Assembly (NCBI RefSeq): GCF_011799805.1
Contig: NZ_WXUB01000001.1
Span: forward strand, 248,001 to 312,000
Direction of reading: 5' to 3'
Length of the DNA: 64,000 nt
Source of the DNA: Maribellus sediminis
GTDB taxonomy: Bacteria > Bacteroidota > Bacteroidia > Bacteroidales > Prolixibacteraceae
Position numbers and translations under genes: made by a program. Under the pieces are notes generated by a model, which did no database searches, was not told the DNA's origin, and saw only the letters and a list, made by a program, of their open reading frames with translations. Shown here in pieces: positions 36,549 to 53,764 of this stretch (position 1 is the first letter of the stretch; each line of letters opens with the position of its first letter).

Positions 36549-37268
36549 TTACACAAACTTCTCACGTTTCTGCAGGTTGAACAATCCGTATAGTATGAAT
36601 ACCAGCATCCCGATTCCAAGGAATATTCGGTTTTTTCGGATGGTGCCTTCCCAGATTACTTCATTCAAATTATTAGGAATCTTGAATGGATTGAGGAATG
36701 GATTCCACTGCGTATTTCGCATAGCATCCTGCAGAATGAGTAAGGCCACACCAATTAAAACCATGGCAACCGCGGTTCCGTTCCCGTTTTTTATCAGGGT
36801 TGAAAACATAAATCCCATCGATCCCAGGAATATGATCGGGAACATGAGCTGCACCGACATTTCGAAAATATTCACTTTATACAAAAGCACGGATGCCAGC
36901 GCTGAAAACAGCACAATGATTATAAAAACCAGTGTGTAGATCATGATCAGGCGAACGAGCCATACTTTGTATCGGTAATTCGGAATTCCGAACAAAATCT
37001 CCAGCATGCGTGAATCATCGTCGTGCTGAATACCAAATACCGAAGGATAAAAGATCAGCAAAACACCCGGAAAGATGAGCAATCCATAAACGGTATCTTC
37101 ACCCATGCCGCGGTTCTCCAAAACCTGCTGAATGGCAAAAAACAGGAAGAATCCGAGTGCCGCAATCAGGAACCAAATGAAACGGTTTGCAAAAATGATC
37201 TTAAGATTGTACCTGATCATTTTCATCAGGATGTACAAGTTGTTTTTCATATTGAGTTTTGCAGCCAT
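36549..37268 (-). CDS. ABC-2 type permease, last gene of the exporter operon
   Basis: The chosen start at 37268 (MAAKLNMKNN) lies 1 bp after the stop of the RND-ABC fusion and gives 239 aa; the next Met (MKNNLYIL) is an alternative, and a longer reading would overlap by 41 bp. Six hydrophobic helices are visible, with the ABC-2 style soluble loop DDDSRMLEILFGIPNYRYKVWLVR after the second. It has no ATPase of its own; the nearest is the C-terminal domain of the fused upstream protein, whose natural partner it probably is. Substrate is unknown. Confidence 0.82.
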   Translation of the reverse strand: MAAKLNMKNNLYILMKMIRYNLKIIFANRFIWFLIAALGFFLFFAIQQVLENRGMGEDTVYGLLIFPGVLLIFYPSVFGIQHDDDSRMLEILFGIPNYRYKVWLVRLIMIYTLVFIIIVLFSALASVLLYKVNIFEMSVQLMFPIIFLGSMGFMFSTLIKNGNGTAVAMVLIGVALLILQDAMRNTQWNPFLNPFKIPNNLNEVIWEGTIRKNRIFLGIGMLVFILYGLFNLQKREKFV

Positions 37269-37269
37269 T

Positions 37270-40200
37270 TTACATAAAGTCTTTAAGTAAGCACAAATAA
37301 GCATCTTCAAGGTGAGGCGACACGTTTACAGCGTCGGGTGTTGGTTGTTCTTTCGCCAGACAGCGTACCTTGATGTTTTCGCCATCGCGCATGTGGTGAA
37401 CGATCATTTGTTTGTTCGCAAAGTTGTCGAATTCCTTAGCTGGCAACGAGAACTGCCAAACAAATTTATTACCCATATTCACCATATCGCTTGGTGTTCC
37501 AAAGTATTTCAGGTTACCCCGGTTAATTACCGCCACCTGGTTACACGAACTCGAAATGTCTTCGATGATGTGGGTCGAGAATATAACGATACGTTCGCGA
37601 CTCAGTTCTACCAGCAGGTTACGGAAACGGATACGTTCGCGTGGGTCGAGACCGGCAGTTGGTTCGTCAACTACCAGTATTCGTGGTAGGTTCAGGAGTA
37701 TTTGCGCAATTCCGATACGTTGTTTCATACCTCCCGAGAAAGAACCGATCTTATCGTTTCGGCGTTCCCACATGTGAACGTTTTTCAACACGTATTCCAG
37801 GCGTTCGTTTCGAATTGTTGTATCCTTGATTCCTTTCAGAATTGCCTGGTAATCGAGGAATTCCCAGGCCGACATATTCTCGTAGGTTCCAAAAGCCTGA
37901 GGCAGATAACCTATCAATCCCTGAAGTTCTTCACGGTATTTCTGCGTGTCCATTCCATTGATCCAGATCTTTCCGTAACTCTGTTCAAGAATACCGGTAA
38001 TGATCCGCATCATGGTTGATTTTCCTGCACCGTTCGGACCTAGTAATCCAAACATTCCGGTTTTAATTTCGAGCGAAACACCATTGAGTGCCCTGAACGG
38101 TTTCTTACGTTTCCCGATAATCGGTATCTGACGAACCATGGTAAAGTAAGCTCTTCGCAATTTGCCAAAGCGTCCTTCAATACGGGCAACGTTCACATTT
38201 TTGTTATGAATGTATTCGCCAGAACTATAAATGATCAGCAGCAAGAACCAGATGATGCCAATAAAAATAACCATACCCAGGTTATCCCAGTTTTTGTAAA
38301 AAACAAACAGGAAAACTGCGGGAATCACCCAGTAAATGATATTGTATATCCATTTTTTCAGCTTCAAATAAAACTGCTTGCCGCTAGCTTCATGCTGGTT
38401 AATAAGCACCTGATTAAACGGTATCCACAAAAGAAAAGTAAAGAAGTACACGCCATGCGACATGATCCACATCCACAGGTTGCTTTCCAGGTAGAAAAAG
38501 GTAAAATACACTACAAAGACAAACAGCGGTAGTTGCCATACGAGGTCGTAAAAGTCGCGAATGTGTTTATAATCGCGGGTTAATCCGGCACGTTCGCGGA
38601 TTTTGATTCCCGATTTCCATTCGCGGACGAAACGTGAATCGCGGTCGTAAATTTTAACCAGTTTCCTTATTTTAATAACGATCGGCTCTTTTTCGTCGAT
38701 CACTTTTTCGCTGGCTTGTCGCAGGCTGGTCATCACAAAAGCGATAATTCCAGGAACCAGTATGAGCAGCAGCATGTAATCGAGCAGCTGCCAAATAAAT
38801 GAATCAACTTCAAGATAGATCAGGATTGAGCCAACCACGTAGGTTACGATTATCCCGGTTTTTAAACCCCAGTGCAGCGATTTTAACCAGTCGAGTGCAT
38901 TTTCCAATCCGGCATAGAGTGTTGGAATGAAAACCAGAGTCAGCAATGTACTCAGTGCCAAACCGCCGATAACGGTAATGGCAAACGGTGCCCCGATAGC
39001 TCCAACATATTCGGCCTGACCCATAGCAAGCGGGAACAAGGCAACAATAGTCGTAATTGCGGTGATCAGGATCGGACGAACACGCGACAGTCCGGCGGTC
39101 ATTAAAGCACGCGATTTACGGAAGCCACGTTTTCGTAAGATATTCGTAAAGTCGATAAGGATGATACCGTTGTTCACCACCACTCCAATCAGGATAATAA
39201 AGCCCATTAGGGTGTTGGCGTTGAACAGGCTGTTTCCTGTAAAAATCAATGCCAGGAACGAGCCAATTGCAGCCAGCGGGATCGAGAACATCAGTACAAA
39301 CGGTGTTGAAACCGATTCGAAAACTGAGGCCAGAATCATCAGAATAAGGATGAATGCAGCAGCAATCAAAAACTTAAATTCCGAATACTGATCTTCTTCG
39401 TGAACGACTTCAACGGCTACACCCGAAGGCAGTTTATGTGAGCCAATAATATCATCGATCTCCAGGCGATACGCCTCGAGGAGGTCTTTTGATTGTTCAG
39501 CTTCATTAACAAAGCTGTAAGTGAGTTCGATCTGTTTTTCCTGGTTCACGCGGGTAATGCTGGCCATACCATCGGCATAAACCAGTTCGGTCAAATCCTG
39601 CAAATCGTAGGTGGCACCCTGGTTATTGCTGATCTGAAGTCGGCGCAAATCATCGATTCCTTTTTCCGAATCTTCCTCTTCAACACCCTCGGGCAGTTTT
39701 TCTTTTACTACAATTTCGTATTCTTCAGTACCCTGTTTAAAGTTTACACCGGCAGTAAATTCACGGGTAAAGGTTCCCAGTTCTGAAGTAATATTGTTGA
39801 GCGAGATGCCATATTCGGTGAGCAGTAGCTGGTTAAAATACATGTGAACCTCAGGCCGATTCCTTGAAACACTGACGTTGGCACGGCGAATCGATTCCAG
39901 GTCTTCGATGTAGTAGAGCAGGTCGTCGGCAACGCCTTTCATCACGGTGAAGTTTTCGCCTTTAATAACAATACGCTCCTGGTTACTGCCGATTCCCATA
40001 AATTGTGCGAAACCCTGGGTGCCGGAACGTCCTCCGCCACCGCCACCGCGGAAACTACCGCTCGATGTTGGGGCTTCCAGACTTATCTCGGCCTGCGAAA
40101 TATTGTTGAAGCGTTTTTCCACATCGCTTTTAATTTCGGCGATGGTCCGGTCGGCAATGTCTTTATAATCATCTTTCAGAATAAAGGTGAGAATGGCTTC

Positions 40201-41991
40201 CTCCTCTTCGATGGTGGCCATCAGATCTTTCTTCTCTTCAATATCGTTCAAACGGCTTTCTACTTCGGTAACAACCTGGTCGGTGGCATCGAGTGTTGAA
40301 CCGGTTGGCATGGTCACATAAATCGAGAACTGTGTTTCTTCTACTTCGCTAAGGTTGTTTACACTGAGTGCCAGAACAATAAAAACTGTAAGGAAGAACA
40401 TCACAATCGCTCCGATTATGGTGCGACCCGGAACCCGCATACTTGCCTTTAGAAGAAGAACATAAATTTGAATGATGCGGTTGTTGGTGGTTACTTTTTC
40501 GTAGAAAATGTTGTGTTGGCGTTTGCCACGCAGTAACAGGTGAGCGCCCATTGGGATCAACAGCAAAGCAACAAATAAGGAAACCATCAGGGTTGAGATG
40601 ATCGAAATACCTACGTGTTTTCCCAATAGTTTGATCATATATTCGGAGGAGAACAGGAAGGGAAGAAATACTGTAACCGTAGTTAATGTGGCGGCTACGA
40701 TTGATCTCCAAACTTCCTGGGTGCCTTGTGTTACAGCTGTCTCAGCATCAAAGCGGTTCCCCGAAAGCCGGTATATATTTTCGAGCACAACAACGCTGTT
40801 ATCGAGAAGCATCCCGATGGCAAGTACAAGTCCAACCAGTGTTAAACTGTTCAGCGAAAGGTTGAAGGCATAAAAAAGATTGAACGCAGTAAAAACCGAT
40901 ATTGGAATGGCCAGTGCGATGAAGGAAACAATGCGCATGTTCTTCAAAAACATCCACAGCACGAAAATGGCCAGCAGCCCGCCAACCATTGCAAGGTTGA
41001 TCATCTGGTCGATGTTGTTTTCCATGGTTTCGGCCGTGTTGGTCTGAACCACAATTTCGACATCTTTTGCTGCCAGTTTTTCATTCAGCCTGGCGATTTG
41101 ATCTTCAACACGGTGCGAAAGTTCAATCAGGTTGGCTTGTGAATCGCTCACCAGCCGCATCGAAACTGCATCGAGACCATTAACACGGCTGATCGAAGTT
41201 TCTTCACTCACGCCAAAAAATACATCAGCTACGTCGCGCAGATAAATTGGACCTTCGGCTACAACAATGTTTTCTATATCTGAAACCTTGTCGTATTCGG
41301 CTGTTACGTGTACAAAATACTGTTTGTTTGCATCGTGCAGGTAACCGGCAAAAGTTCGGTTTTGCGAGTTCCCGGAAATCGCGCTTCTGATCTGCGAAGG
41401 CGTAATTCCGTATGCTTCGCAGGCAGCCGCATCATAGGTTACTTCAATCGATCTTTCACGTCCTCCGTAAACGGCAACCGAAGCCACTCCGTCGATGTTT
41501 TCTATCTCTGAAGTGATTTCCTGGTCAACGATGTTGCGCACACGGTCTACACCGCCGCTTCCCCTGACCTGCAACTCCATAAACTGGTTGGTGAGTTGTT
41601 CGATATCAACTTTGTTTACCACTACCCTAAAATTGTCATCGAGATCGGCCGTAATCAGATCGATCTTTTCCTGCAGTTTAAGGAAGGTGTATTTTACGTT
41701 TACGTTCTGCTTAAAATTTACCTGTATTGACGCCGAGTTGTTGTTGATGAACGACTCCATGCTTTCGATGCCTTCCATGGTACCAATGGCGCCCTCAATC
41801 GGTATCACTGCCTGGTTTTCCATGTAAGTCGGGTCCACCTCGATGCGCGATTGAATTTGCACATAAAGCATGGGGAGTTCGGCATTTGGCATTAATTCCA
41901 CCGGCAGCATCTTATAGGACACAAAACCCAAAAGGGTAAGCCCTATAAAGAGCATGCTGATGAATATTTTTCTATTTATGATGAACTTCAT
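37270..41991 (-). CDS. RND efflux pump fused to extra helices and an ABC ATPase
   Basis: This is a single 1573-aa open frame. Residues 1 to about 1050 are a full RND (HAE1/AcrB-type) pump: TM1, porter domains, and the TM4 motif GMLLDNSVVVLENI with one of the two usual Asp residues kept. A Gly-rich loop (FRGGGGGGRSG) lies in the second porter half, and TM10-11 read IILIGVVVNNGIILIDF. From about 1060 to 1290 come six further hydrophobic helices joined by basic loops. From about 1295 to the end is a complete ABC ATPase: Walker A GPNGAGKST (1318-1326), signature FSGGMKQR (about 1418-1425), Walker B ILVVDEP (about 1438-1444) and H-loop STH (about 1472). It is closely similar to the separate ATPase at 51165. 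An RND pump normally uses the proton gradient only. No stop or frameshift breaks the join. Confidence 0.93.
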   Translation of the reverse strand: MKFIINRKIFISMLFIGLTLLGFVSYKMLPVELMPNAELPMLYVQIQSRIEVDPTYMENQAVIPIEGAIGTMEGIESMESFINNNSASIQVNFKQNVNVKYTFLKLQEKIDLITADLDDNFRVVVNKVDIEQLTNQFMELQVRGSGGVDRVRNIVDQEITSEIENIDGVASVAVYGGRERSIEVTYDAAACEAYGITPSQIRSAISGNSQNRTFAGYLHDANKQYFVHVTAEYDKVSDIENIVVAEGPIYLRDVADVFFGVSEETSISRVNGLDAVSMRLVSDSQANLIELSHRVEDQIARLNEKLAAKDVEIVVQTNTAETMENNIDQMINLAMVGGLLAIFVLWMFLKNMRIVSFIALAIPISVFTAFNLFYAFNLSLNSLTLVGLVLAIGMLLDNSVVVLENIYRLSGNRFDAETAVTQGTQEVWRSIVAATLTTVTVFLPFLFSSEYMIKLLGKHVGISIISTLMVSLFVALLLIPMGAHLLLRGKRQHNIFYEKVTTNNRIIQIYVLLLKASMRVPGRTIIGAIVMFFLTVFIVLALSVNNLSEVEETQFSIYVTMPTGSTLDATDQVVTEVESRLNDIEEKKDLMATIEEEEAILTFILKDDYKDIADRTIAEIKSDVEKRFNNISQAEISLEAPTSSGSFRGGGGGGRSGTQGFAQFMGIGSNQERIVIKGENFTVMKGVADDLLYYIEDLESIRRANVSVSRNRPEVHMYFNQLLLTEYGISLNNITSELGTFTREFTAGVNFKQGTEEYEIVVKEKLPEGVEEEDSEKGIDDLRRLQISNNQGATYDLQDLTELVYADGMASITRVNQEKQIELTYSFVNEAEQSKDLLEAYRLEIDDIIGSHKLPSGVAVEVVHEEDQYSEFKFLIAAAFILILMILASVFESVSTPFVLMFSIPLAAIGSFLALIFTGNSLFNANTLMGFIILIGVVVNNGIILIDFTNILRKRGFRKSRALMTAGLSRVRPILITAITTIVALFPLAMGQAEYVGAIGAPFAITVIGGLALSTLLTLVFIPTLYAGLENALDWLKSLHWGLKTGIIVTYVVGSILIYLEVDSFIWQLLDYMLLLILVPGIIAFVMTSLRQASEKVIDEKEPIVIKIRKLVKIYDRDSRFVREWKSGIKIRERAGLTRDYKHIRDFYDLVWQLPLFVFVVYFTFFYLESNLWMWIMSHGVYFFTFLLWIPFNQVLINQHEASGKQFYLKLKKWIYNIIYWVIPAVFLFVFYKNWDNLGMVIFIGIIWFLLLIIYSSGEYIHNKNVNVARIEGRFGKLRRAYFTMVRQIPIIGKRKKPFRALNGVSLEIKTGMFGLLGPNGAGKSTMMRIITGILEQSYGKIWINGMDTQKYREELQGLIGYLPQAFGTYENMSAWEFLDYQAILKGIKDTTIRNERLEYVLKNVHMWERRNDKIGSFSGGMKQRIGIAQILLNLPRILVVDEPTAGLDPRERIRFRNLLVELSRERIVIFSTHIIEDISSSCNQVAVINRGNLKYFGTPSDMVNMGNKFVWQFSLPAKEFDNFANKQMIVHHMRDGENIKVRCLAKEQPTPDAVNVSPHLEDAYLCLLKDFM

Positions 41992-42020: not shown

Positions 42021-45000
42021 TTAGCTGGCTTTTTCTACTGCTTTGTCCGATCTTACAAATAGCAATCTGAATCTGTCGAGCACATCGTAAACACAAGGAA
42101 TAACCACGAGTGTTAACAAGGTTGAGGTGATCAGACCGCCAACAACGGCCAGTGCCATTGGCGAACGAAGCGATGCACTTTCACCAAAACCAAAGGTCAG
42201 TGGCAGCAGTGCTAAAATCGTGGTCAAGCTGGTCATGATGATCGGGCGGATACGTTGCTGACCGGCCTGTAAAATAGCCTGCCGGCGATCCACTCCGTCG
42301 CGAATAAGCTGGTTGATGCGGTCGATCAGAATTATCGAGTCGTTCACCGCAATACCTACCAGCATAATCACACCGATGATGGCCATAATATTAAATGTTT
42401 TACCCATTATGAAAAAGATGAGTATGGTACCAACAACCGCCAGTGGAATCGTAAGCAGAATGGTGAAAGGATGAATCAGCGACTCGAACTGAGAAGCCAG
42501 AACCATGTACACCAGAACGATCGAAAGGATCAGTGCAAATGTAAGGTTGCTCAGTGATTCCTGACGTTTTTCCTCTTCACCGGTCACCATAATGCGGTAA
42601 TCGGGAAGCAGGTCGATGGTGGCTACATGCTCGCGAATGTCTTTGGCAACATGGTCGAGTGCAACACCTTTTTCGAGTTGTGCAGTAACTTTTCCGATCC
42701 GGTTTTGGTTTCTGCGGATAATTTCTTTAGGAGCTACACCGTACGAAATATCTGCGATTTCGTTCAGCCTGAATACCTGTTCGCCCGAGGTGATCAGAAT
42801 TGAGTTAATCTCATCCAATCCTTTTTCGGGAACTTTGATGGTGATGTCCTGCATTTCGCCATTCTTTTCGAGCTGGCCGGCAGTCCTACCTTCAAGCTGT
42901 TCCTGAATTTGAGAAATTACCGTGCTGATATTGAGGTTGTACATTCCTGCACGCATCCGGTCAACATGCACTTCAACTTCGGGTGCACCGTCTTCAATCG
43001 AAGTTTGAACATTGAACAAACCATTCATCCCGAGCATTTTCTCCTTCACCTGGTTCACAATGTTTTCTATCTCATCGAGTTCTTCTCCGCGAACCTCAAC
43101 AACTACCGGTGCTTCATCGGTTCCGAGAATGGACTGAAGGGCACTTTCTTCCTGAGAAAAGGTCAGTTCCAGACCTTCAACATTAGCTGTTAAATTCGAA
43201 AGCGTTTTTACAATACTTTCAGAAGAAACGGTTGTCTCCGGTTTCAGGATCACTGTTATCTGTGCGGTATTCTCGCCTTCGAAAACGGCAGTTTGATCAC
43301 CGGCGATTCCCGAACTCGGGCCGGCCTGCGCATAAATAATATCAAGGTTATCGCCCAGGTAATCCATCAGAATGTCTTCAATATTCCGAACCGTTGATTC
43401 CGTGCGGCTAAGTTTTGTGCCTTCCTGTAATTTTAAATCAATTTTAAGTTCCCGTGTTTCTGTTTTCGGCATGAATTCCGTTCCGATATAAGGAACCAGC
43501 AAAACCGAAGCACCAATAGCTACAGTGGCAACAATAATTACCAGCCATTTAGCATTTAAAACTTTATCGAGAAAACGACCGTATCCTCCAACCTGTATCG
43601 ACTTGGCTTTAACGGGTGACTTTTTGTTTCGGTAGAAACGATGGTACATCATAGGGATAAGGAAAATAGCTACAACCAGCGATGAAAGCAGTGAGAAAGC
43701 CACTGTCCAGGCCTGGTCTTTAAAGAGCTCGCCCGATGCTCCGTGCAAATAAACAATCGGAAGAAATACTATAATCGTAGTAAGTGTTGAAGCGGTGATC
43801 GCTCCCCCCACTTGTGATGTTCCGGTTATGGCTGCCTCGCGCACACTCATGCCGTTTTCGTGGTTTCTGAAAATGTTTTCCATTACCACGATGGCGTTGT
43901 CTACCAGCATACCCGCACCCAGTGCCAATCCTCCCAATGTCATAATGTTTATGGTGAGGTGGTTGAAATACATCAGGTTAAAGGTGGCAATGATAGAGAT
44001 CGGGATAGCAATACTTACAATCAATGTAGTACCAAGCCGGCGTAAAAACAGGAAGAGAACAACAATCGCCAGCAAAATACCCAGTAAGGCGGTATTCTGA
44101 ACTTCTTTTATCGCACTGCTGATAAAACGTCCCTGGTTGGTAACCTTGGTTAGTTTGTAACCCGGCAAAGCTTTTTCGATGTTTACCAGAGCTTCATCGA
44201 TCTGTTCTACCGATTTAACGGTGTTGTATTTTGTTTCCTTGTATATCGACAAGCCTAAACAACGCTCGCCATTGATGTGAACAATGTTATCCGGTTCCTT
44301 ATTTCCTTCGCGAACAAAGGCAACGTCTTTCAGGTAAACAGGAGCCATTTCAACCGATGATCCGGTTTCGGTGGCTGATTGTGTACGAACTGCTTTGTAA
44401 CCAACAATCAGGTTTTCGAAATCTTCGGCGGTTTGCAGCATGGAAACACCTTTAACAATGTACTGGATTCCCATATCGCTGATACGACCTCCGGAAACAT
44501 TGCGGTTAAAGTTTTCGATGCGTGACGAGATTTCGTCCATTGAAAGATCCTGCGATTCAAGGCGATACACATCTGTTTCGATGATGATCTCGCTTTCTTC
44601 CTGACCAGAAAGTTCCACTTCGGCTACACCTTCCAAACGAACCAGTTCGTTGCGGATGTAGTTTTCCGCTACTTTTCTGAGCTCGTTCATATCGGAAATC
44701 TCATTGTGGGTAAGGCCAATGATCATTACCGGCGTTGTATTCGGGTCGTGCTGGGTTATTTTCAGCTCGTCGATTTCAGCGTTCTGGGTTAGTGTATTTA
44801 ATGCTTTCTGCAGGTCGAGAAAGGCTTCGTCCATGTCCTTGTTCCAGGCATATTCTACGGTGACCTGTGCCGATCCCACGCGCGAAACAGAAGTAACCTG
44901 GATAACATCCGACTGGCGAATGGCCAGTGCTTCGATGTTCTCCACAAACTGTTGCTCCATTTCTTCAGGTGGTCGTTCGCCCGAAGTCACTTCCACAAAA

Positions 45001-45137
45001 ATGCGGGGCGAGTTCAGGTCCGGGAACAGGTCAACACCCAATTTATCGTACGAAATGTAGCCGAGGAGTACAACTCCAAGTACCACCATCAGCACGGTAA
45101 CCGGGTAATTGACAGCAAATTGTGTTAATTTCTTCAT
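42021..45137 (-). CDS. RND efflux transporter permease (HAE1 type)
   Basis: This is a 1038-aa protein of normal length with the standard 12-helix RND layout: N-terminal TM1 (residues 11-31), first porter domain, GGLALGAGMLVDNAIVVMENIFR in TM4, TM6 region, second large periplasmic loop, and TM10 motif GIAVNDSIILIDR. It pumps substrates from the periplasm or inner membrane to an outer-membrane channel using the proton gradient. The upstream genes supply the adaptor and TolC channel, so it forms a complete tripartite pump. The fused RND-ABC protein follows 29 bp downstream; having two RND subunits suggests a hetero-oligomer, as in MdtBC, though this is an inference. Confidence 0.95.
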   Translation of the reverse strand: MKKLTQFAVNYPVTVLMVVLGVVLLGYISYDKLGVDLFPDLNSPRIFVEVTSGERPPEEMEQQFVENIEALAIRQSDVIQVTSVSRVGSAQVTVEYAWNKDMDEAFLDLQKALNTLTQNAEIDELKITQHDPNTTPVMIIGLTHNEISDMNELRKVAENYIRNELVRLEGVAEVELSGQEESEIIIETDVYRLESQDLSMDEISSRIENFNRNVSGGRISDMGIQYIVKGVSMLQTAEDFENLIVGYKAVRTQSATETGSSVEMAPVYLKDVAFVREGNKEPDNIVHINGERCLGLSIYKETKYNTVKSVEQIDEALVNIEKALPGYKLTKVTNQGRFISSAIKEVQNTALLGILLAIVVLFLFLRRLGTTLIVSIAIPISIIATFNLMYFNHLTINIMTLGGLALGAGMLVDNAIVVMENIFRNHENGMSVREAAITGTSQVGGAITASTLTTIIVFLPIVYLHGASGELFKDQAWTVAFSLLSSLVVAIFLIPMMYHRFYRNKKSPVKAKSIQVGGYGRFLDKVLNAKWLVIIVATVAIGASVLLVPYIGTEFMPKTETRELKIDLKLQEGTKLSRTESTVRNIEDILMDYLGDNLDIIYAQAGPSSGIAGDQTAVFEGENTAQITVILKPETTVSSESIVKTLSNLTANVEGLELTFSQEESALQSILGTDEAPVVVEVRGEELDEIENIVNQVKEKMLGMNGLFNVQTSIEDGAPEVEVHVDRMRAGMYNLNISTVISQIQEQLEGRTAGQLEKNGEMQDITIKVPEKGLDEINSILITSGEQVFRLNEIADISYGVAPKEIIRRNQNRIGKVTAQLEKGVALDHVAKDIREHVATIDLLPDYRIMVTGEEEKRQESLSNLTFALILSIVLVYMVLASQFESLIHPFTILLTIPLAVVGTILIFFIMGKTFNIMAIIGVIMLVGIAVNDSIILIDRINQLIRDGVDRRQAILQAGQQRIRPIIMTSLTTILALLPLTFGFGESASLRSPMALAVVGGLITSTLLTLVVIPCVYDVLDRFRLLFVRSDKAVEKAS

Positions 45138-45209: not shown

Positions 45210-46268
45210 TTATAAAATCACTTTAACTTTTGAATTGTCGCGCAGGGTTTCAAATCCTTTAATGATGAGTCGGTCGTTGGCACTCAGGCCTTCTACAACT
45301 TCAACTTCATCCTGGTTCGAAATACCGGTGGTGATTCTGCGGTCTTCCGCCGAGCTGTTACGCCCAACAATAAACACATATTTTCCGCGTGATCCCGATA
45401 GGATAACATCTCTTGGAATGACAATAACACTGTCCTTTTGTGCTGTTACAATATTGGCTTTAATGAACATTCCGGGGCGAAGTTTCAACTCCGGATTTTC
45501 GATTTGCAGCTTGCCGGCAAATGTCCGTGTTTCGGTACTGATTACCGGTGACAGTTCTGTTACATGCCCGATAAGCGTATCTTCTGTGAGTGTGTAGTTG
45601 GTAATTAAGGCTTCCTGTCCGATTTTTATTTCAGAAATGTTTTTTTCCGGAAGGTTGATTTCAACAAACATTTTGTCGTAGCTCATTAGTTTTACCATGC
45701 TTTCGCCGGTGTTTACGCGCACGCCTTCGGTGTAATAGGGCAGTTCCACAATAATTCCCGCAAACGGAGCAGTAACCTGCATTTTTGCCATCTGAATCTG
45801 CGCATTTTCGTAACTGTACTTGGCGTCGATTTTTGAAACCTCAGAGTTACGCAATTCACGCAGGGTAACACCGCCTTTTTCATACAACGACTTTTGTTTG
45901 TCATATTCCTGCTCCGAGATCTCCAGGTTCAGTTTTCTTGATTCCATGGAGAGGCCATTTTCGTACTCTTCGTTTTCGAGTTTAACAATCACCTGGCCTT
46001 TTTCAACGCGATCGCCCAATTTGAATTTACGACCGGTTTTTGGATTGATCTGCAGGAAATATTCTCCTTCAATTTCCGAAGTCAATTCTGTTTCAGAGCC
46101 GGCTTTTGCGGTTCCGGTGGTTGAAATAAACTGCTGAATACTTTTCAGTTTGATGTTCTCAACAGAAACGGGTACCGCCAGGTCCGACGATTCCGAGGAG
46201 GGTTGGTTGTTGCAGGAAGCCATTAATGCCACAGCAACGATCAGGTAAAGTAATTTTATATTCTTCAT
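45210..46268 (-). CDS. RND membrane-fusion (adaptor) lipoprotein
   Basis: The ATG at 46268 gives 352 aa (a TTG two codons upstream is disfavoured). The lipoprotein signal ends VALMASC (Cys about 19). The order of domains is classic: a first lipoyl strand (GTAKAGSETELTSEIEGE), a helical hairpin (about residues 95-140), a second lipoyl half (QMAKMQVTAPFAGIIVELPYYTEG), then a beta-barrel (TNYTLTEDTLIGHVTELSPV) and a membrane-proximal domain (VIPRDVILSGSRGKYVFIVG). It bridges the RND pump and TolC channel. It is part of the long exporter operon, 20 bp after the TolC gene. Confidence 0.93.
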   Translation of the reverse strand: MKNIKLLYLIVAVALMASCNNQPSSESSDLAVPVSVENIKLKSIQQFISTTGTAKAGSETELTSEIEGEYFLQINPKTGRKFKLGDRVEKGQVIVKLENEEYENGLSMESRKLNLEISEQEYDKQKSLYEKGGVTLRELRNSEVSKIDAKYSYENAQIQMAKMQVTAPFAGIIVELPYYTEGVRVNTGESMVKLMSYDKMFVEINLPEKNISEIKIGQEALITNYTLTEDTLIGHVTELSPVISTETRTFAGKLQIENPELKLRPGMFIKANIVTAQKDSVIVIPRDVILSGSRGKYVFIVGRNSSAEDRRITTGISNQDEVEVVEGLSANDRLIIKGFETLRDNSKVKVIL

Positions 46269-46288
46269 GGTCAATTGTTTTTCAGATG

Positions 46289-47800
46289 TTATTTACTTTC
46301 TTCGTTCAGGTAGAGTTCGGTAGGAAGAATTGCTTCTTTCCTTTCGAAATCGTACAAGGATTGTATTTTCAGGTTTAATAATTCAATTTTATAGTTGATG
46401 AGTGCCTGGCTGTATGAAATTTTGTTTTGCGACAACTGGGTTTGGTACAGGTTAAGGTCCATACCGGTCAGGTCGCCGTTTTCGTAACGCTCGAGGTTGA
46501 TCTCGTAAGTAAGCTGTGCGTTTCTTTCGTTTTGCTTGGCAATATCAATTTGTGTCAGCTGGTTTTGCAGGTTGCGATACACCTGTCTGATATCAACAAT
46601 GATCTGCTTTTTTTCTTCCGATAAGCTTAACTCGTTCGATTTAATGGCTGCTTCAGAAGCCGCGATCCTGGCTTTCTTTTCGCCCCAGTCGAAGATTGGG
46701 ATGTTGAATGTTAAACCAACCGAGGGGCTCCGGGTAGGCTGATCGAAAATCTGGTTCAACTTTTTATCGTCACCGGTGATACCTACGCGAAGATTCATTT
46801 CACCCATGAATTCGTTCAATGATTTGGTTTGGATAAGATCGAACTGGCTGTTTTCGATATCGATTTCGCGCTGGCGTATTTCCATTCTAGAATTTAATCC
46901 GTTCTGGATTGCCAGTTCCATATCTACCGGAACAGGATTCGAACTGATATCTGCCAGGATCAAAATGTCTTCGTAGAGGTCCATGCCCAGGTAAAGTTTT
47001 AGCTGGTCTTTGGCATTTTCAAAATTTACCTCATTGTTTTGAACCGTTGATTTGGCTGTTGAAAGGTTAAGTTCGGCCTGGTACAATTCTTCCTTAGCTG
47101 CCAATCCTGCGTTTACTTTGTTAACGATGATGTCGTAACTTTTTTGGGTATTTGCCAGCTCTTCTTTGGCAATGCTCAGGTTCATTTGTGTCATATACAC
47201 ATTGTAAAAGAACTCTGTAACATTTCGTTCGAGATTCAATCGCTGCATTGCGTAACTAATCTTGGCGTTTTCGAGGCTGAGCTCTAATTGCCGAAGTTGC
47301 ACTTTCAGACGGTTGTATGTGAATAAAGGCTGATTGAAATTAAGATAGAGGTTATTATAAAACACCTCACTTTTATTTTCAGGATCTGAACTGTTTAATG
47401 TTGAGTTACTGCTCGACCAGCCAAACTCATTAATTAACGAGATGGTTCCATCTGTCGGGAGAATTGGTTGAGAAATAGTAAACCGGGTGTTCGATTCAAG
47501 GTTCTCGTTGGTATACCACTCCGAAAAACGTGTATCGAAACGTCGTTGGTTACTGTAATTCACCGGAGTTACTTCGAGCGAAAGGCGCGATTTTAATGCT
47601 GCCCGCTGAGCCTCAAGCGATTTTTGATAACGTTCGAGGTTTAGCAACGATTGCTGCAGATCGGGACTTCCGGTTTGCGCAATTGACAGTGCCCGGTCGA
47701 GTGTCAGCGTTACCTGTGCCTGTGCTGTATAAAATGACAGGCCGCTTAGCAGCAAAAGAATTGTGACTGTTTGGAATAGTCGGTGTCGAGATCGTGTCAT
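46289..47800 (-). CDS. TolC-family outer-membrane efflux protein
   Basis: This is a 503-aa protein with a signal peptide (residues 10-28, cleavage after YTAQA). It has two OEP repeats, each with long amphipathic helices (LTLDRALSIAQTGSPDLQQSLLNLERYQKSLEA at the start, and LAKKARIAASEAAIKSNELSLSEEKKQ-type heptads in the second half). The motif VGLTFNIPIFDWGEKKARI is typical of the second repeat. It forms the trimeric channel across the outer membrane and periplasm. Within the operon it lies between an ABC permease gene and the RND adaptor, so it could serve both an ABC-type and an RND-type pump. Confidence 0.93.
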   Translation of the reverse strand: MTRSRHRLFQTVTILLLLSGLSFYTAQAQVTLTLDRALSIAQTGSPDLQQSLLNLERYQKSLEAQRAALKSRLSLEVTPVNYSNQRRFDTRFSEWYTNENLESNTRFTISQPILPTDGTISLINEFGWSSSNSTLNSSDPENKSEVFYNNLYLNFNQPLFTYNRLKVQLRQLELSLENAKISYAMQRLNLERNVTEFFYNVYMTQMNLSIAKEELANTQKSYDIIVNKVNAGLAAKEELYQAELNLSTAKSTVQNNEVNFENAKDQLKLYLGMDLYEDILILADISSNPVPVDMELAIQNGLNSRMEIRQREIDIENSQFDLIQTKSLNEFMGEMNLRVGITGDDKKLNQIFDQPTRSPSVGLTFNIPIFDWGEKKARIAASEAAIKSNELSLSEEKKQIIVDIRQVYRNLQNQLTQIDIAKQNERNAQLTYEINLERYENGDLTGMDLNLYQTQLSQNKISYSQALINYKIELLNLKIQSLYDFERKEAILPTELYLNEESK

Positions 47801-47818: not shown

Positions 47819-50800
47819 TTACTGTTCAACCAGCTTTACTGCGTCGGCAAATACCATCCGAAGCTGGGTTTTATTTGTTAGTTCAATTAATGCTGTATCG
47901 GGCGAGAAGTAGTAGGTACCCAGATGGTTCCAGCCGGTTTCTGCTCCCGCAATATCGAGTGCTGCTTGTTCCGGTCCATCTTCGCCGTGAATTATAAAAT
48001 TGTAATTACCTTTTTCTTCGTTTCTGTCGCGGCCGCGGGCACGCATTTTATACAGGTGAAAGTACACATCGTAGTAACCGGCCGATTGAATCGGAACGTT
48101 CCAGCGTGCCACCTGGTCGCCTTCGCCCCCCTTTATATAATATCCCGAGCGAACATATTCGCCATAGAAATCTTCGTTGGTTATAGCTGTCCAGCTGGTT
48201 GCCGGCCGCCACCAGTTTACTCCCTGGTACTTGCTGGTCTTTTCTTCTTCCTTCACAATGAGTTTCTCGAGCAAGCTAACGTTTTCGTTTTTGGTTACCG
48301 AGAATTCGTGATCTTCATTATCCACCACAATTTCGTTTGGTAATTTAAACTGAACGGGAGTTTCAACAATACGTTCGCCTTCCACCGGTTTTGCTTTCGG
48401 ATCTTCTTCCACATCTCTGAAAAATTGCATCATTGTTTGAGGAATATTCTTCGAGGTCATCGTATTGAGTACCACCATTCTTGGCGATCCATCAAGCAGG
48501 TAGCTCAATTCTTTGGTTTGGTGTGCTTCCAGGTAGATCAGGTGGTCGATCGATTCATCGCCACCGCCACCGGGGCCGCGTCCAGGGCCTCCTCCTCCCA
48601 TTCGAAATGAGAGTCTTACCAGTCCTTCAACGTCGGAAAAATTGGTTACTTTCAGGCTAACCATTGTTTTCATTGCATCGCCGCTTTTTACTTTAACGGC
48701 TTTTATTGGTGAAATCAGGTAGCCCGGTAACGCCTTTGCTTTAAACCAGTCGTCCATTATCGGTATCAATTCAATACCAAAACGGTCGTAGATCATTTTG
48801 TCGAAATCCTCGAAGGAAATATTCTTGTACCTGTTCTCGGTTAAAACTTGTCGCAAGAAATCTTCGAACTCTTTTTGTCCGGCTTTCCACTGTATCATCG
48901 AGAACAACACGTCGCCTTTAAGTTTGATCACATTGTCGACAATGTCTTTTTGATCGGGATCGGCAAGAATCTGCTCAAAAGTTTCATCCTGCAGAGCAAC
49001 GTTTGCCAGCACATCTTCGCTTTCGCCATTCATATTACTCATAAAAATAGAGCGCATGTCCATGGCCTGTCCTTTCAGGTATGCTTCGAAAATACGGTTG
49101 GTAATCGGCCATTTATCCGACTGAATATTGTTTTGAAAATTGTATAACATCGGGAAGATGAAATAAGGATTTGGTTTTTGCGTCATTTCCATATTCCCTC
49201 TTGAGAAATTTCGGTCTGCCTCATATTCTTCGATGAACTTCCGGATAAAACCTTCCATTACCCGGATTTCCTTATCCATATCGGTCATTTCTCCTTCACC
49301 ACGGCGCCCCCATCTGCCAACATTTTCTTTTTGTTTTTCAAAATCGGCATCGCGCATCATGTATCCTTTTTCAGGAATAAGCACCTGTTGTGGCTGAACA
49401 GCCTCTTGTACCGAAGTCCACATGCGAGCATACGTTTTGAATTGTGCCGGTACTTCAACAATATTGAAGCGTGTTCCGCTATAATCGAGGTTATAGGTGC
49501 GTTTGAAATCTTCGAAACGTTCGCTGATAATGCTGGCCAGTGTATCTTTCGATTCCGGGAATTGTTCCGAGAAATAATCGTGACCATTGATGTACCAAAG
49601 GCCAAAAGTGATGTTATCCTTTTCTATCGATTTTTGTTTGTAATGACCGATTGCCAGCGATACTTCAGTTAACGGATTCTCGTTTTTGAAACTGTATTCA
49701 CCGGCAGTAATTTCGTTAATATTACCTTGTGAAACGGCCTGTAGTCCTTCGCTGGTTTTTACCCGAAGCGAATAATTTACAAATTGAGGATGGTACCAAC
49801 TTACATCTTTTGTGCTGTAGGTAACACCGGTTTTGGGATACCAGTTGGCTTCCTTGGTAAGTAGTACATATTCGGGCGTGATAAAAGCAAAACGTTTATC
49901 TACATTCAATACAAATTTCCCGTATTTCTCCTGACGTGTTTCTTCTTCAATGTCAAGGTAACAATATGTTTCGTCGATACTGCCCGAGTAAGCAAATTCG
50001 ATAATTGCTGAATCGCCAACTGCCAGGTTAATGTTATCGGAAAGAATAATGAGCTGTTTGTCGCGAAGGAAGCGCACATCGTTGCCGTTTAATTTTATAC
50101 CTGAAAGCTCTAAGCCCGCATTCAGACTAAAAATAAGTTTGTTGAGTGGCTGTTTCCGATCGTTCAGAATAGCCATTTTAGAAACTACGTCGATTATATT
50201 TTCGTGATGCACTACTTCCAGATCGTTGGAAAGGATGGTTGGAACCGCTTCACCAACGTATTTATTATTTAGCTCAACTATTTCGGCACGCAGTTTTTCA
50301 TTTTGTTTGAAATTATAAATGTGTTCGAACCCAAGGTAACCGGCACCGGCAATAAAAACAATGGCGAAAATTAGCGAAAACCAGGTCATTGCTTCCGATT
50401 GTGGCAAACGTTTCAGCAGGAAAATGGTCAGGAAGATAAAGCCGGCTCCCAGTCCGAAATACATTCCGCGGTGGATGAGAATGGTTTCGAGGTTACCGAA
50501 TCCTACAATGTCGGAACTCAACATGGGGATGTTGAAGGCCATATAATCGAAAATATAGTAGAACTTGGCTTGTAACAGGAACAATGTGATTCCGATGTAT
50601 CCCAGCACCAAAACAAAGGTGATGGCCTGGTTGCGGATAACACTCATCAGTAAAAATGAAAGCCCCATGATAAAAACCAGCGTTGGAATACTGATGAGCA
50701 ACAGATAAACGCCGTAAGCTGTCCAGTTAATGGCAGTTCCCTGGGCCAGCGAATTGAATATCAGCGCCATGATTACCACTGCGATGTTCAGGATCATGAA

Positions 50801-51154
50801 AACCTGCATGTTTCCAAGGGTTTTTCCAATAACGTACTCACCGTTGGTCATCGAGCGCATATAAATTACTTCGGTGGTGTCCAGCTTTTTATCACGTTTT
50901 AAAAAGTCGGAGGCCAGGAATACGGCTATAATTGCCTGTGCAACGTTCAGAATTAAAAGGTTGAAGTATGGAATGGCGCTTGGAATCGCACGAATTGCCC
51001 AACCTTCGTCGCCACCGCCTTCGATCACCATTCCGAAATTCATTCCGAAAAGGACCAGCAGCGACAGGATACTAAATATCCTGAAGAACCAGCTGCGGAA
51101 CAGTGTTTTGCGCTCGTATTTCGCAATAGAAAATATATTGTGTAATGAAATCAT
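47819..51154 (-). CDS. ABC-2 permease fused to degenerate M1-peptidase-like and golvesin-like domains
   Basis: This is an 1111-aa protein. Residues 1-300 hold about seven helices of ABC-2 permease type. A long periplasmic part, about 310-860, resembles the M1 aminopeptidase domain fused to ABC permeases in other Bacteroidota (FKRTYNLDYSGTRFNIVEVPAQF, QAVQPQQVLIPEKG, YDRFGIELIPIMDDWF). No HExxH zinc motif is present anywhere: the expected site reads YFIFPMLYNF, and the Glu-containing follow-up reads RIFEAYLKG. It is therefore probably a non-catalytic relative. A Gly-rich linker (MGGGGPGRGPGGGG) follows. The last 150 residues match golvesin-type domains (YDVYFHLYKM, GWNHLGTYYF, ALIELTN, VFADAVKLVE). 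The ATPase partner lies 10 bp upstream. Confidence 0.85.
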   Translation of the reverse strand: MISLHNIFSIAKYERKTLFRSWFFRIFSILSLLVLFGMNFGMVIEGGGDEGWAIRAIPSAIPYFNLLILNVAQAIIAVFLASDFLKRDKKLDTTEVIYMRSMTNGEYVIGKTLGNMQVFMILNIAVVIMALIFNSLAQGTAINWTAYGVYLLLISIPTLVFIMGLSFLLMSVIRNQAITFVLVLGYIGITLFLLQAKFYYIFDYMAFNIPMLSSDIVGFGNLETILIHRGMYFGLGAGFIFLTIFLLKRLPQSEAMTWFSLIFAIVFIAGAGYLGFEHIYNFKQNEKLRAEIVELNNKYVGEAVPTILSNDLEVVHHENIIDVVSKMAILNDRKQPLNKLIFSLNAGLELSGIKLNGNDVRFLRDKQLIILSDNINLAVGDSAIIEFAYSGSIDETYCYLDIEEETRQEKYGKFVLNVDKRFAFITPEYVLLTKEANWYPKTGVTYSTKDVSWYHPQFVNYSLRVKTSEGLQAVSQGNINEITAGEYSFKNENPLTEVSLAIGHYKQKSIEKDNITFGLWYINGHDYFSEQFPESKDTLASIISERFEDFKRTYNLDYSGTRFNIVEVPAQFKTYARMWTSVQEAVQPQQVLIPEKGYMMRDADFEKQKENVGRWGRRGEGEMTDMDKEIRVMEGFIRKFIEEYEADRNFSRGNMEMTQKPNPYFIFPMLYNFQNNIQSDKWPITNRIFEAYLKGQAMDMRSIFMSNMNGESEDVLANVALQDETFEQILADPDQKDIVDNVIKLKGDVLFSMIQWKAGQKEFEDFLRQVLTENRYKNISFEDFDKMIYDRFGIELIPIMDDWFKAKALPGYLISPIKAVKVKSGDAMKTMVSLKVTNFSDVEGLVRLSFRMGGGGPGRGPGGGGDESIDHLIYLEAHQTKELSYLLDGSPRMVVLNTMTSKNIPQTMMQFFRDVEEDPKAKPVEGERIVETPVQFKLPNEIVVDNEDHEFSVTKNENVSLLEKLIVKEEEKTSKYQGVNWWRPATSWTAITNEDFYGEYVRSGYYIKGGEGDQVARWNVPIQSAGYYDVYFHLYKMRARGRDRNEEKGNYNFIIHGEDGPEQAALDIAGAETGWNHLGTYYFSPDTALIELTNKTQLRMVFADAVKLVEQ

Positions 51155-51164
51155 GTTTTCAGTT

Positions 51165-52058
51165 TTAGGCGTTTGACCACTGGTTGAGTTTGTTTTCCAT
51201 AAAATGCACGTAGGCGTGCTCGAGGTTCGGCGCTATTTGTTTGCCCTGGTAGCCGTTGATGTTATCGGTAACTACCTGAACTTCCCAACCACCGTCAATA
51301 GGAATGGTGGAAATCACCGGGTATTTTTCATTGATCTCGAGGTATTCTGCTTCGGTGGCTTCAATCTGCCAAACATTTCCTTCGGCTTCTTTAACCAATT
51401 GTTCGGGTGAACCGTTAAATGCCAGTTTACCTCTATTCAGAAGTGCCATGTTATCGCAGGTACTCGAAATGTCGCCAACAATGTGGGTCGAAAGGATGAT
51501 GATCACATCGCGGGTGCTGATGGTTGACAGCAGGTTCCGAAAACGGATACGCTCCTCCGGGTCGAGACCGGTGGTCGGCTCATCCACAATAATCACCTGC
51601 GGATCGTTGATTAGCGCCTGTGCAATTCCAAGGCGGCGTTTCATACCTCCCGAAAGTTTGTTGGCGTTGCGGTCGCGTGCTTCAAACAAACCAACTTCTT
51701 CCAGCATCTGGTCAACTGCAGAACGGCGGACAGCGCTGTTTTTCATACCAGATAAACGGGCAGTATAATCCAGAAATTCATAGGTTTTTAACTTTGAGAA
51801 AAAACTAAAATCCTGGGGCAGATAACCCAGCATCTGACGAATTTCGCGGCGGTTTTTCGATAACTCCATATCGTTGAACCATACTTTCCCGCTTGTTGGC
51901 TTCATAAGCGTTACGAGAATTCGCATGAGGGTTGATTTACCAGCGCCGTTAGGGCCGAGCAAACCAAACATTCCGTTCGGAATTTCAAGGTTCAGGTTAT
52001 TTACTGCATAACTACCGCCCTTGTATACTTTGTTGAGATTTTCAATTTTTATATGCAC
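51165..52058 (-). CDS. ABC transporter ATPase, first gene of the exporter operon
   Basis: This is a 297-aa protein starting at GTG 52058; an in-frame stop six codons upstream rules out a longer form. All ABC motifs are present: Walker A GPNGAGKST (35-43), Q-loop YLPQDF, signature KLSGGMKRR, Walker B VIIVDEP, and H-loop STHIVGD. The family is the CcmA/DrrA/NatA-type exporter ATPase. The C-terminal tail is extended. Sequence is strikingly like the ATPase domain of the RND-ABC fusion (shared ERIRFRNLL, STHI..DISS.C, NRG.L). The partner permease is the gene 10 bp downstream. No clear -7 box exists for the operon; GAATTTTG at 52062-52069 is one base off and would make the mRNA almost leaderless. 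Confidence 0.93.
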   Translation of the reverse strand: MHIKIENLNKVYKGGSYAVNNLNLEIPNGMFGLLGPNGAGKSTLMRILVTLMKPTSGKVWFNDMELSKNRREIRQMLGYLPQDFSFFSKLKTYEFLDYTARLSGMKNSAVRRSAVDQMLEEVGLFEARDRNANKLSGGMKRRLGIAQALINDPQVIIVDEPTTGLDPEERIRFRNLLSTISTRDVIIILSTHIVGDISSTCDNMALLNRGKLAFNGSPEQLVKEAEGNVWQIEATEAEYLEINEKYPVISTIPIDGGWEVQVVTDNINGYQGKQIAPNLEHAYVHFMENKLNQWSNA

Positions 52059-52338: not shown

Positions 52339-52923
52339 TTATAATTCTGCAAGAAACTTGTGGTCGGTAATGTAATCGGTAACTACCACCTCGTAATCAC
52401 CTGCTTTCAGTTTCGAAAGGTCGAGGCGTTTCTGGATGGCCAGATCTTTGCCGAGTTTAAATCCGTCGATGTGTTTTCCGTCCTGGTAAATGTTTACATA
52501 AACCGGTTTTTGCGGACTGTTAAAAAACGAAATGTTCAGCATTTTTTCTTCCAAACAGAAATAAGGCTCATAACACCGCATGGGCGCGCCAACTGAAATG
52601 CTTTCTCCATCAAGTAGCAGGTTACGTTTTACGCTTCTGTTACCGTAGTTAACACACATGCAGTAGCTTCCGTCTCCCAATTCAGCGAAGTCGAATACCT
52701 GATTGTATTCTGTTTCTTTCTGATTGGTCCGTTTAAAATACAGCACTTCACCGTTACAATCGGTGAGTGTTACTTCGAGCGTTGCAGCTGTTGGGGCCTT
52801 ATAAGCCAACATGGCTTTGTTGGCCTCAACGGGTATTACATTCATCGCGGGGAAGTCTGTGGCATTTCCTACTGATACAATAAAAAATGCCAGGATTGCT
52901 AAAATCCAGGTCTTTGTTTTCAT
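52339..52923 (-). CDS. DUF3244-like secreted protein, paralog 4
   Basis: This 194-aa protein has a signal peptide (MKTKTWILAILAFFIVSVGNA). It keeps the two-half design of the 18-21 kb cluster: QVFDFAELGDGSYCMCV in the first half and RLDLSKLKAGDYEVVV in the second, with NISFFNSPQKPVYVNIYQDG matching the LTFLNFEKQDVKFQLYDDG segment of paralog 2. Five cysteines are present in the mature part, which the others lack. It lies 30 kb from the cluster, between the TetR gene and the exporter operon, and has its own terminator. Its position hints at a link to export, but that is speculative. Confidence 0.68.
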   Translation of the reverse strand: MKTKTWILAILAFFIVSVGNATDFPAMNVIPVEANKAMLAYKAPTAATLEVTLTDCNGEVLYFKRTNQKETEYNQVFDFAELGDGSYCMCVNYGNRSVKRNLLLDGESISVGAPMRCYEPYFCLEEKMLNISFFNSPQKPVYVNIYQDGKHIDGFKLGKDLAIQKRLDLSKLKAGDYEVVVTDYITDHKFLAEL

Positions 52924-53161: not shown

Positions 53162-53764
53162 TTAGCGTTTCATGATGCCGTAGCAAATGATCTTAAGGAT
53201 GGTGTCTACGCTTCGTTCCAGGTTTACATCGCCGTAATAGCCGGCAGTTAATGGCATTTCCAAACCTTTGATAGCGGTAGTAATACCAATGGCAGCCAGG
53301 TTAAAGTCGTAAATCTCGAATTCGTTTTTGCGTACGCCTTCAATTAAAATACGTTTGATCATTCGGATTTCGTCTTGCTCGTATTTCCGTTTTACTTCAT
53401 CGATAAAGCCAACCGCAGTAATGTCATTCTCGATGGCGTGGTAAAAATTGGCCAGGTTTCTGAATGTGGCGAGCTTGGTTAAAATATAATCGCGCAGTTT
53501 ATCAACCGGATCGGTATTACGGTTGATCACGATCTCGAGTTCATAAGCGAGAATTTCAACCTCTTTCATGATCACTGCCTGGAAAAGGTCTTCCTTACTA
53601 TTGAAATAGTAATACAATGAGCTTTTCCCCTTCCTTACGGCATTGGCGATGTCGTCGAGAGTGGTTTTTTTGAAGCCGTATTTACTAAAGATTTCGCGGG
53701 CGATTTTCAGGATGTTTTCGCGGTTTGCATCCTTTTTGTTGCCGTTTTTGCTTAAGTTCTGCAT
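53162..53764 (-). CDS. TetR/AcrR-family transcriptional repressor
   Basis: This 200-aa protein has an N-terminal TetR helix-turn-helix (about residues 14-61): REIFSKYGFKKTTLDDIANAV, then KSSLYYYFNSKEDLF. The C-terminal helical ligand-binding region is divergent, as usual in this family. Such regulators commonly control efflux pumps and are released from DNA by a pump substrate. It lies on the same strand about 1.1 kb upstream of the exporter operon, with one unrelated gene between. It is the only regulator near, so it is a good candidate for control of the exporter, but no operator is proven. Confidence 0.9.
   Translation of the reverse strand: MQNLSKNGNKKDANRENILKIAREIFSKYGFKKTTLDDIANAVRKGKSSLYYYFNSKEDLFQAVIMKEVEILAYELEIVINRNTDPVDKLRDYILTKLATFRNLANFYHAIENDITAVGFIDEVKRKYEQDEIRMIKRILIEGVRKNEFEIYDFNLAAIGITTAIKGLEMPLTAGYYGDVNLERSVDTILKIICYGIMKR

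Follow-up and report, generated by a model that had tools for sequence, protein, structure and literature searches.

RND pumps and ABC exporters are usually placed in different classes, each with an energy source of its own. Among tripartite RND pumps, those of the MdtABC type have two adjacent RND permease genes and an adaptor, with MdtB and MdtC forming a mixed RND trimer, and a survey of Bacteroides fragilis reportedly counted 16 RND homologues. ABC ATPases of the DrrA, GldA and ABCA-like kinds, which are found with ABC-2 permeases, are to our knowledge neither split by membrane helices nor joined to RND pumps. MacAB-TolC combines an ATP-driven inner-membrane part with an adaptor and TolC, MacB being described as an ATPase fused to its own permease (PMC8277102). 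The same source presents SecA/SecYEG with SecDF as a case in which an ATP motor and a proton-driven factor of the RND superfamily serve one cargo (PMC8277102).

The locus described here lies in a window of 64,000 nucleotides (the whole stretch of DNA that was analysed) from the genome of Maribellus sediminis. Like the MdtABC type it has two adjacent RND permease genes and an adaptor; unlike in MdtABC, an ABC ATPase and six additional helices are attached to one of the two RND permeases, and the gene set extends to ABC exporter genes. With MacAB-TolC it shares the combination of an ATP-driven inner-membrane part with an adaptor and TolC, whereas its ATPase is joined to an RND permease, and no match to the MacB permease domain was found at E values up to 0.001 in a Pfam scan of six operon proteins. 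The fused ATPase resembles the DrrA/GldA/ABCA-like ATPases. Unlike the parts of the fusion, SecA/SecYEG and SecDF are separate proteins, engaged in protein translocation and operating without TolC. In line with the original remark that no described transporter of this architecture was known, a literature search with TCDB and preprints outside its scope returned no account of an RND-ABC fusion, and an earlier notice of a long member of the family is possible. With both motors in one conserved protein, it becomes possible to ask directly whether a single envelope-spanning exporter can run on ATP as well as on proton flow.

The single frame of 1573 codons noted at first, holding an RND pump, six additional helices and an ABC ATPase, was borne out by open reading frame, Pfam and hydropathy analyses (Table 1). 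The Pfam model ACR_tran is matched over its full length (fusion residues 2-1027 against model positions 1-1021, E 2.2e-166) and ABC_tran at residues 1302-1446 (E 4e-28). Between these domains, hydropathy indicates six helices beyond the RND set at residues 1047-1065, 1069-1087, 1150-1168, 1172-1190, 1214-1232 and 1238-1256, the fourth of which was detected at a lower hydropathy cut-off only. The M. sediminis genome has one copy of the fusion. Domain-based annotation would label such a protein a plain RND permease, which may be how it came to be overlooked.

Table 1. Features of the fusion gene and its neighbours; positions are those of the window.
Feature	Residues	Positions	Strand	Description
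RND-ABC fusion (FUS)		37270..41991	(-)	1573 aa, one unbroken ORF
RND permease module of fusion	1-1027	38911..41991	(-)	Pfam ACR_tran; neighbouring RND gene is the closest in its own genome
Extra helices 13 and 14 of fusion (predicted)	1047-1087	38731..38853	(-)	Hydropathy and AF2 model
First ABC ATPase strand with A-loop Tyr1115 (predicted)	1104-1116	38644..38682	(-)	Tyr in 71/71 rows; AF2 strand; structural matches start here
Membrane insert, helices 15-18, within ABC ATPase (predicted)	1117-1297	38101..38643	(-)	Hydropathy, AF2 model
Remaining ABC ATPase and C-terminal domain	1298-1573	37270..38100	(-)	ABC_tran; 42% identity to neighbouring ATPase ABCup
perm253, small 6-helix permease		36549..37310	(-)	Weakly ABC-2-like; start codon uncertain; overlaps fusion end
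RND2, second RND permease		42021..45137	(-)	1038 aa; ACR_tran
Periplasmic adaptor (MFP)		45210..46274	(-)	RND_mfp TIGR01730 above cut-off
TolC-like outer-membrane channel		46289..47800	(-)	OEP
M1perm, ABC-2-like permease		47819..51154	(-)	1111 aa; degenerate M1-peptidase-like and Golvesin_C domains
ABCup, separate ABC ATPase		51165..52058	(-)	Within the genome, the ATPase closest to the fused one
TetR-type regulator		53162..53764	(-)	TetR_N; upstream of operon

A search with the join (residues 1030-1300) gave matches in 34 of the 37 genomes from the genus, the M. sediminis genome itself included, and in 4 of 24 further genomes from the order. When the order was sampled evenly, matches appeared in 41 of 295 genomes, 40 of them firm; the remaining genome (G308) was left out of the count on account of a weak match in a 447-aa frame that phmmer did not confirm. 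Frames of 1515-1640 codons are present in 32 of these 40 genomes, and the other eight have shorter ones, all at contig ends. In one genome, G124, the frame on one contig stops at amino acid 931, with 148 bases left to the contig edge. Across the phylum sample, 7 of 395 genomes match, six of them firmly (two of the six outside the class), with a 51-residue match containing stops (G397) not counted. A scan of a species-level genome collection with one sequence pattern confirmed 202 fusion loci, 80 of which form the basis of all counts of named loci given below. A single whole frame of 1544-1606 aa is found in 70 of the 80, seven are cut at contig ends, and three are broken copies in MAGs, two of them (L096 and L098) interrupted away from the join and one (L139) at the join as well as elsewhere. 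The hosts comprise environmental Bacteroidales as well as human gut Bacteroides and Parabacteroides: according to their records they include Maribellus, Draconibacterium, Mariniphaga, Sunxiuqinia and Marinifilum, together with Bacteroides faecis, B. faecichinchillae, B. bouchesdurhonensis, Parabacteroides gordonii and P. faecis, and two fusion-bearing MAGs are labelled Chlorobiota and Cytophagales. A viral collection contained no relative of the fusion, and a library of defence systems returned general ATPase matches only. One genome (G036, contigs C6 and C7) carries the fusion twice, each time as one frame.

The join is under purifying selection. In all eight comparisons with close relatives, residues 1028-1300 gave a pS of 0.72-0.82 against a pN of 0.13-0.17, values quoted in this form because dS of the join was saturated in seven of the eight; the join nevertheless evolves faster than the ATPase, for which pN is 0.03-0.07. 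An unfused version was sought in these samples by way of genomes that have perm253 or M1perm and lack the fusion, and none turned up. Five genomes with M1perm and no fusion join (G050, G172, G217, G222 and G311) are all cut by contig ends, the contig end in G050 falling inside the fusion at amino acid 1013, and perm253 without the fusion is represented by four weak matches only (G046, G145, G244 and G327; E 8e-5 to 4e-4). The weak matches of G145, G244 and G327 lie in 1033-codon frames. Two refutations had been named beforehand. Assembly error fails, as the long frame recurs in many independent genomes spread over many families, and so does a lone lost stop, there being no unfused version in these samples and the five candidates being truncated. 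The idea that mis-assembly or a lost stop fused two ordinary genes in M. sediminis has nothing in its favour for the copy in the window, its one point of contact being the relative broken at the join (L139); set against the whole frames in the order sample, where every other copy is cut by a contig end, the whole frames in the named loci and the selection across the join, it can be regarded as practically dismissed. The evidence supports the fusion as a real, conserved one-piece RND-ABC protein.

The ATPase portion of the fusion was originally taken to be a full ABC domain, and all of its catalytic motifs are indeed there, but the domain appears to be interrupted, its first strand preceding the last four helices. 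By sequence comparison, residues 1104-1116 show the strand and A-loop features typical of ABC ATPases, as seen at the start of ABCup, and similarity to ABCup picks up again at residue 1301. Residues 1026-1573 were modelled with AF2 (52 sequences, pLDDT 83.9, pTM 0.68); in the model a strand at 1106-1115 (model residues 81-90) is followed by an amphipathic helix, then by four long helices and one more helix, and the ATPase body starts at about residue 1299. When this model was compared with solved structures, 49 of the 50 listed alignments began within model residues 70-80, matching these to the N-terminal strand of the solved ABC ATPases, and one began at residue 12; the alignment ranges give first and last aligned residues only, so that they support the placement of the strand and are by themselves no proof of strand pairing. 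A second model covering residues 866-1573 (pLDDT 78.8, pTM 0.51) leaves the order of elements unchanged and is too weak to position the helices relative to the RND core. Motifs and predicted model together thus point to a nucleotide-binding domain that is not contiguous, its A-loop strand being cut off from the body by a four-helix membrane insert of 109-225 residues, and the split is seen in all aligned rows. Such an ATPase, with its A-loop strand severed by helices, would test how nucleotide binding reaches the membrane.

Insert length is 170-181 residues in all 71 rows of one alignment set and 165-225 residues in 30 of the 32 rows of the other, where L059 and L061 have just 109 residues and are read as missing about two helices; part of the insert therefore appears dispensable. 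Basic stretches flanking the insert agree with a cytosolic location of the ATPase and with an even helix count. The suggestion that the six extra helices form an ABC permease core was not upheld. They have no Pfam permease match, the predicted strand and A-loop of the ATPase sit between the second and third of them, the insert is far shorter in the two relatives just mentioned, and a separate small permease gene, exactly co-distributed with the fusion, follows it.

Motif conservation was assessed in an alignment of 71 rows, comprising the copy in the window and 70 named relatives. The A-loop, Walker A, Q-loop, SGG signature, Walker B with its Glu, D-loop Asp and H-loop are intact in every row, from which ATP hydrolysis is expected, and the ATPase motifs of ABCup are likewise intact in 21 of 21 rows. 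In the RND half, with relay positions placed by alignment with an RND chain, Asp397, Arg972 and Asp947 are invariant (71/71). We take Asp397 to be the proton-relay aspartate of helix 4 and Arg972 the arginine of helix 11, and their invariance suggests that the RND motor is not dead. The position of the second helix-4 aspartate is occupied by Asn in 70 of 71 rows, and that of the helix-10 lysine by Asn in 60, Arg in nine and Gly and Lys in one each; with these two residues of the textbook relay substituted, proton drive becomes less certain. The relay of the fusion thus seems to be present, but departs from the AcrB pattern. Other RND pumps too deviate at the second helix-4 aspartate or the helix-10 lysine.

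Within this genome, the best matches of both halves of the fusion lie in the same gene set. The fused ATPase and ABCup each find the other first (242 and 243 bits, with the next matches at 143 and 144), and a search from the fused RND half returns RND2 first, at 322 bits, the next being 223. In a tree of 43 ATPases, 16 fused sequences occupy one branch (100/97) that is joined to ABCup (98/93), and six of nine other ATPases fall apart from this combined branch; the remaining three sit among the ABCup sequences on a long branch, in a tree that has long branches. Among solved structures, the best match of the fused RND half is MdtB and the fused ATPase resembles ABCA-type ATPases; the fused ATPase also matches the GldA and DrrA models at scores under their cut-offs.

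The fusion belongs to a set of seven linked genes on one strand, in the transcription order ABCup, M1perm, TolC, adaptor, RND2, fusion and perm253. The last five, which include the complete tripartite complement, are grouped in 66 of the 80 named loci, and 13 of the 14 loci without the whole group were judged from locus length to be cut by contig ends. The one exception is L141, a Prevotellaceae MAG, where the fusion and perm253 adjoin apart from the other genes, and relatives of RND2 (60% identity) and M1perm (37%) are on other contigs. ABCup, M1perm and TolC are grouped upstream of the fusion in all 19 loci for which that DNA was read. In the order sample of 295 genomes, strong matches to perm253 occur in exactly the 40 fusion genomes, and those to M1perm in 42, five of which are without the fusion join; M1perm is absent from the fusion genomes G047, G297 and G317.

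For both permeases, assignment to the ABC-2 type is tentative. Against ABC2_membrane_3, perm253 has an E value of 0.0021, under the Pfam cut-off, and M1perm matches ABC2_membrane_2 at E 3.8e-5 with bits under the cut-off; no homology was detectable between their membrane parts (HHalign probability 0.3%, from shallow alignments). The HExxH zinc site is absent from M1perm in the window and in 19 of 19 relatives. The pseudo-M1 domain is probably periplasmic, because seven helices precede it. Other genomes carry additional M1perm-family copies outside such operons (L180-L183).

An RND permease and an ABC ATPase are thus combined in one protein encoded within a conserved export gene set. We give an even chance to the proposal that this set specifies a dual-energised exporter, in which paired ATPases power an ABC exporter linked to a heteromeric RND-adaptor-TolC channel. 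With its RND half, the fusion would join RND2 in a mixed trimer, as in MdtBC, docking the adaptor and TolC; this is the simplest use of two RND genes, one adaptor and one TolC. The fused ATPase would pair with ABCup, and the pair would drive an ABC exporter with M1perm and perm253 as its membrane halves; a heterodimeric exporter is proposed because it makes the simplest use of both ATPases and both ABC-2-like permease genes. ATP hydrolysis would take an amphiphilic substrate out of the cytosol or the inner membrane and bring it to the entrance of the RND trimer, after which the proton-driven RND cycle would export it from the cell via the adaptor and TolC. The pseudo-M1 domain of M1perm may hold a peptide-like or lipid-like substrate, nucleotide binding would be linked through the membrane insert with the helices that lie next to the RND module, and one fusion per trimer would tie one ABC exporter to one channel. 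In favour of the proposal are the intact ATPase motifs, the invariant Asp397 and Arg972 of the RND half, the closeness of the fused ATPase to ABCup and of the RND half to RND2, and the linkage and shared distribution of the genes. Counting against it are the substituted relay residues, the undetected homology between the membrane parts of M1perm and perm253, the Pfam match of perm253 under the cut-off, the shortened insert of two relatives, the broken MAG copies, the G124 frame and the three other ATPases within the ABCup group. Going further, we tentatively put forward a new exporter class, in which an RND trimer has a helix-threaded ABC ATPase in one subunit, the binding of ATP has a mechanical link to the RND cycle, and a single heterodimeric ABC exporter supplies a single RND-TolC channel; we hold this version to be possible, if somewhat doubtful.

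Two other readings accept the fusion and assign it a different role. The two modules might be joined only for a fixed ratio and proximity, an RND pump and an ABC exporter with a common substrate each running its own cycle with no mechanical coupling. The retention of its own active sites by each module is consistent with this, as are the marked linker variability in the short-insert relatives and the faster evolution of the join compared with the ATPase. A mere connection, however, has no need of a membrane insert between the A-loop strand and the ATPase body, yet the split recurs in every aligned row, and no unfused version came to light in the samples searched; we consider the reading unlikely. 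The ATPase might instead be regulatory, nucleotide binding and hydrolysis by the fused domain gating or assembling the RND-adaptor-TolC complex without moving substrate. The layout in the predicted model would suit gating, with the A-loop strand and the body flanking helices by the last RND helix, and the RND motor residues are in part non-standard. Against it stand the full ABC permease genes and the second ATPase that accompany the fusion, which point to a working ABC exporter, and the fused site, which is degenerate in none of the 71 rows, making a purely regulatory role quite improbable.

The TetR gene upstream of the operon in M. sediminis is not conserved at that position in relatives and is likely a local regulator outside the conserved unit; its presence beside the operon suggests an induced efflux system in M. 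sediminis. Also upstream of the operon, at 52339-52923, is a gene for a short secreted protein with a Por_Secre_tail-like match, relatives of which were seen next to the operon only in L149 and L151. Farther along the window, two ORFs at 59689-62061 and 62134-63993 face each other and, judging from their translations, resemble related TonB-dependent outer-membrane receptors.
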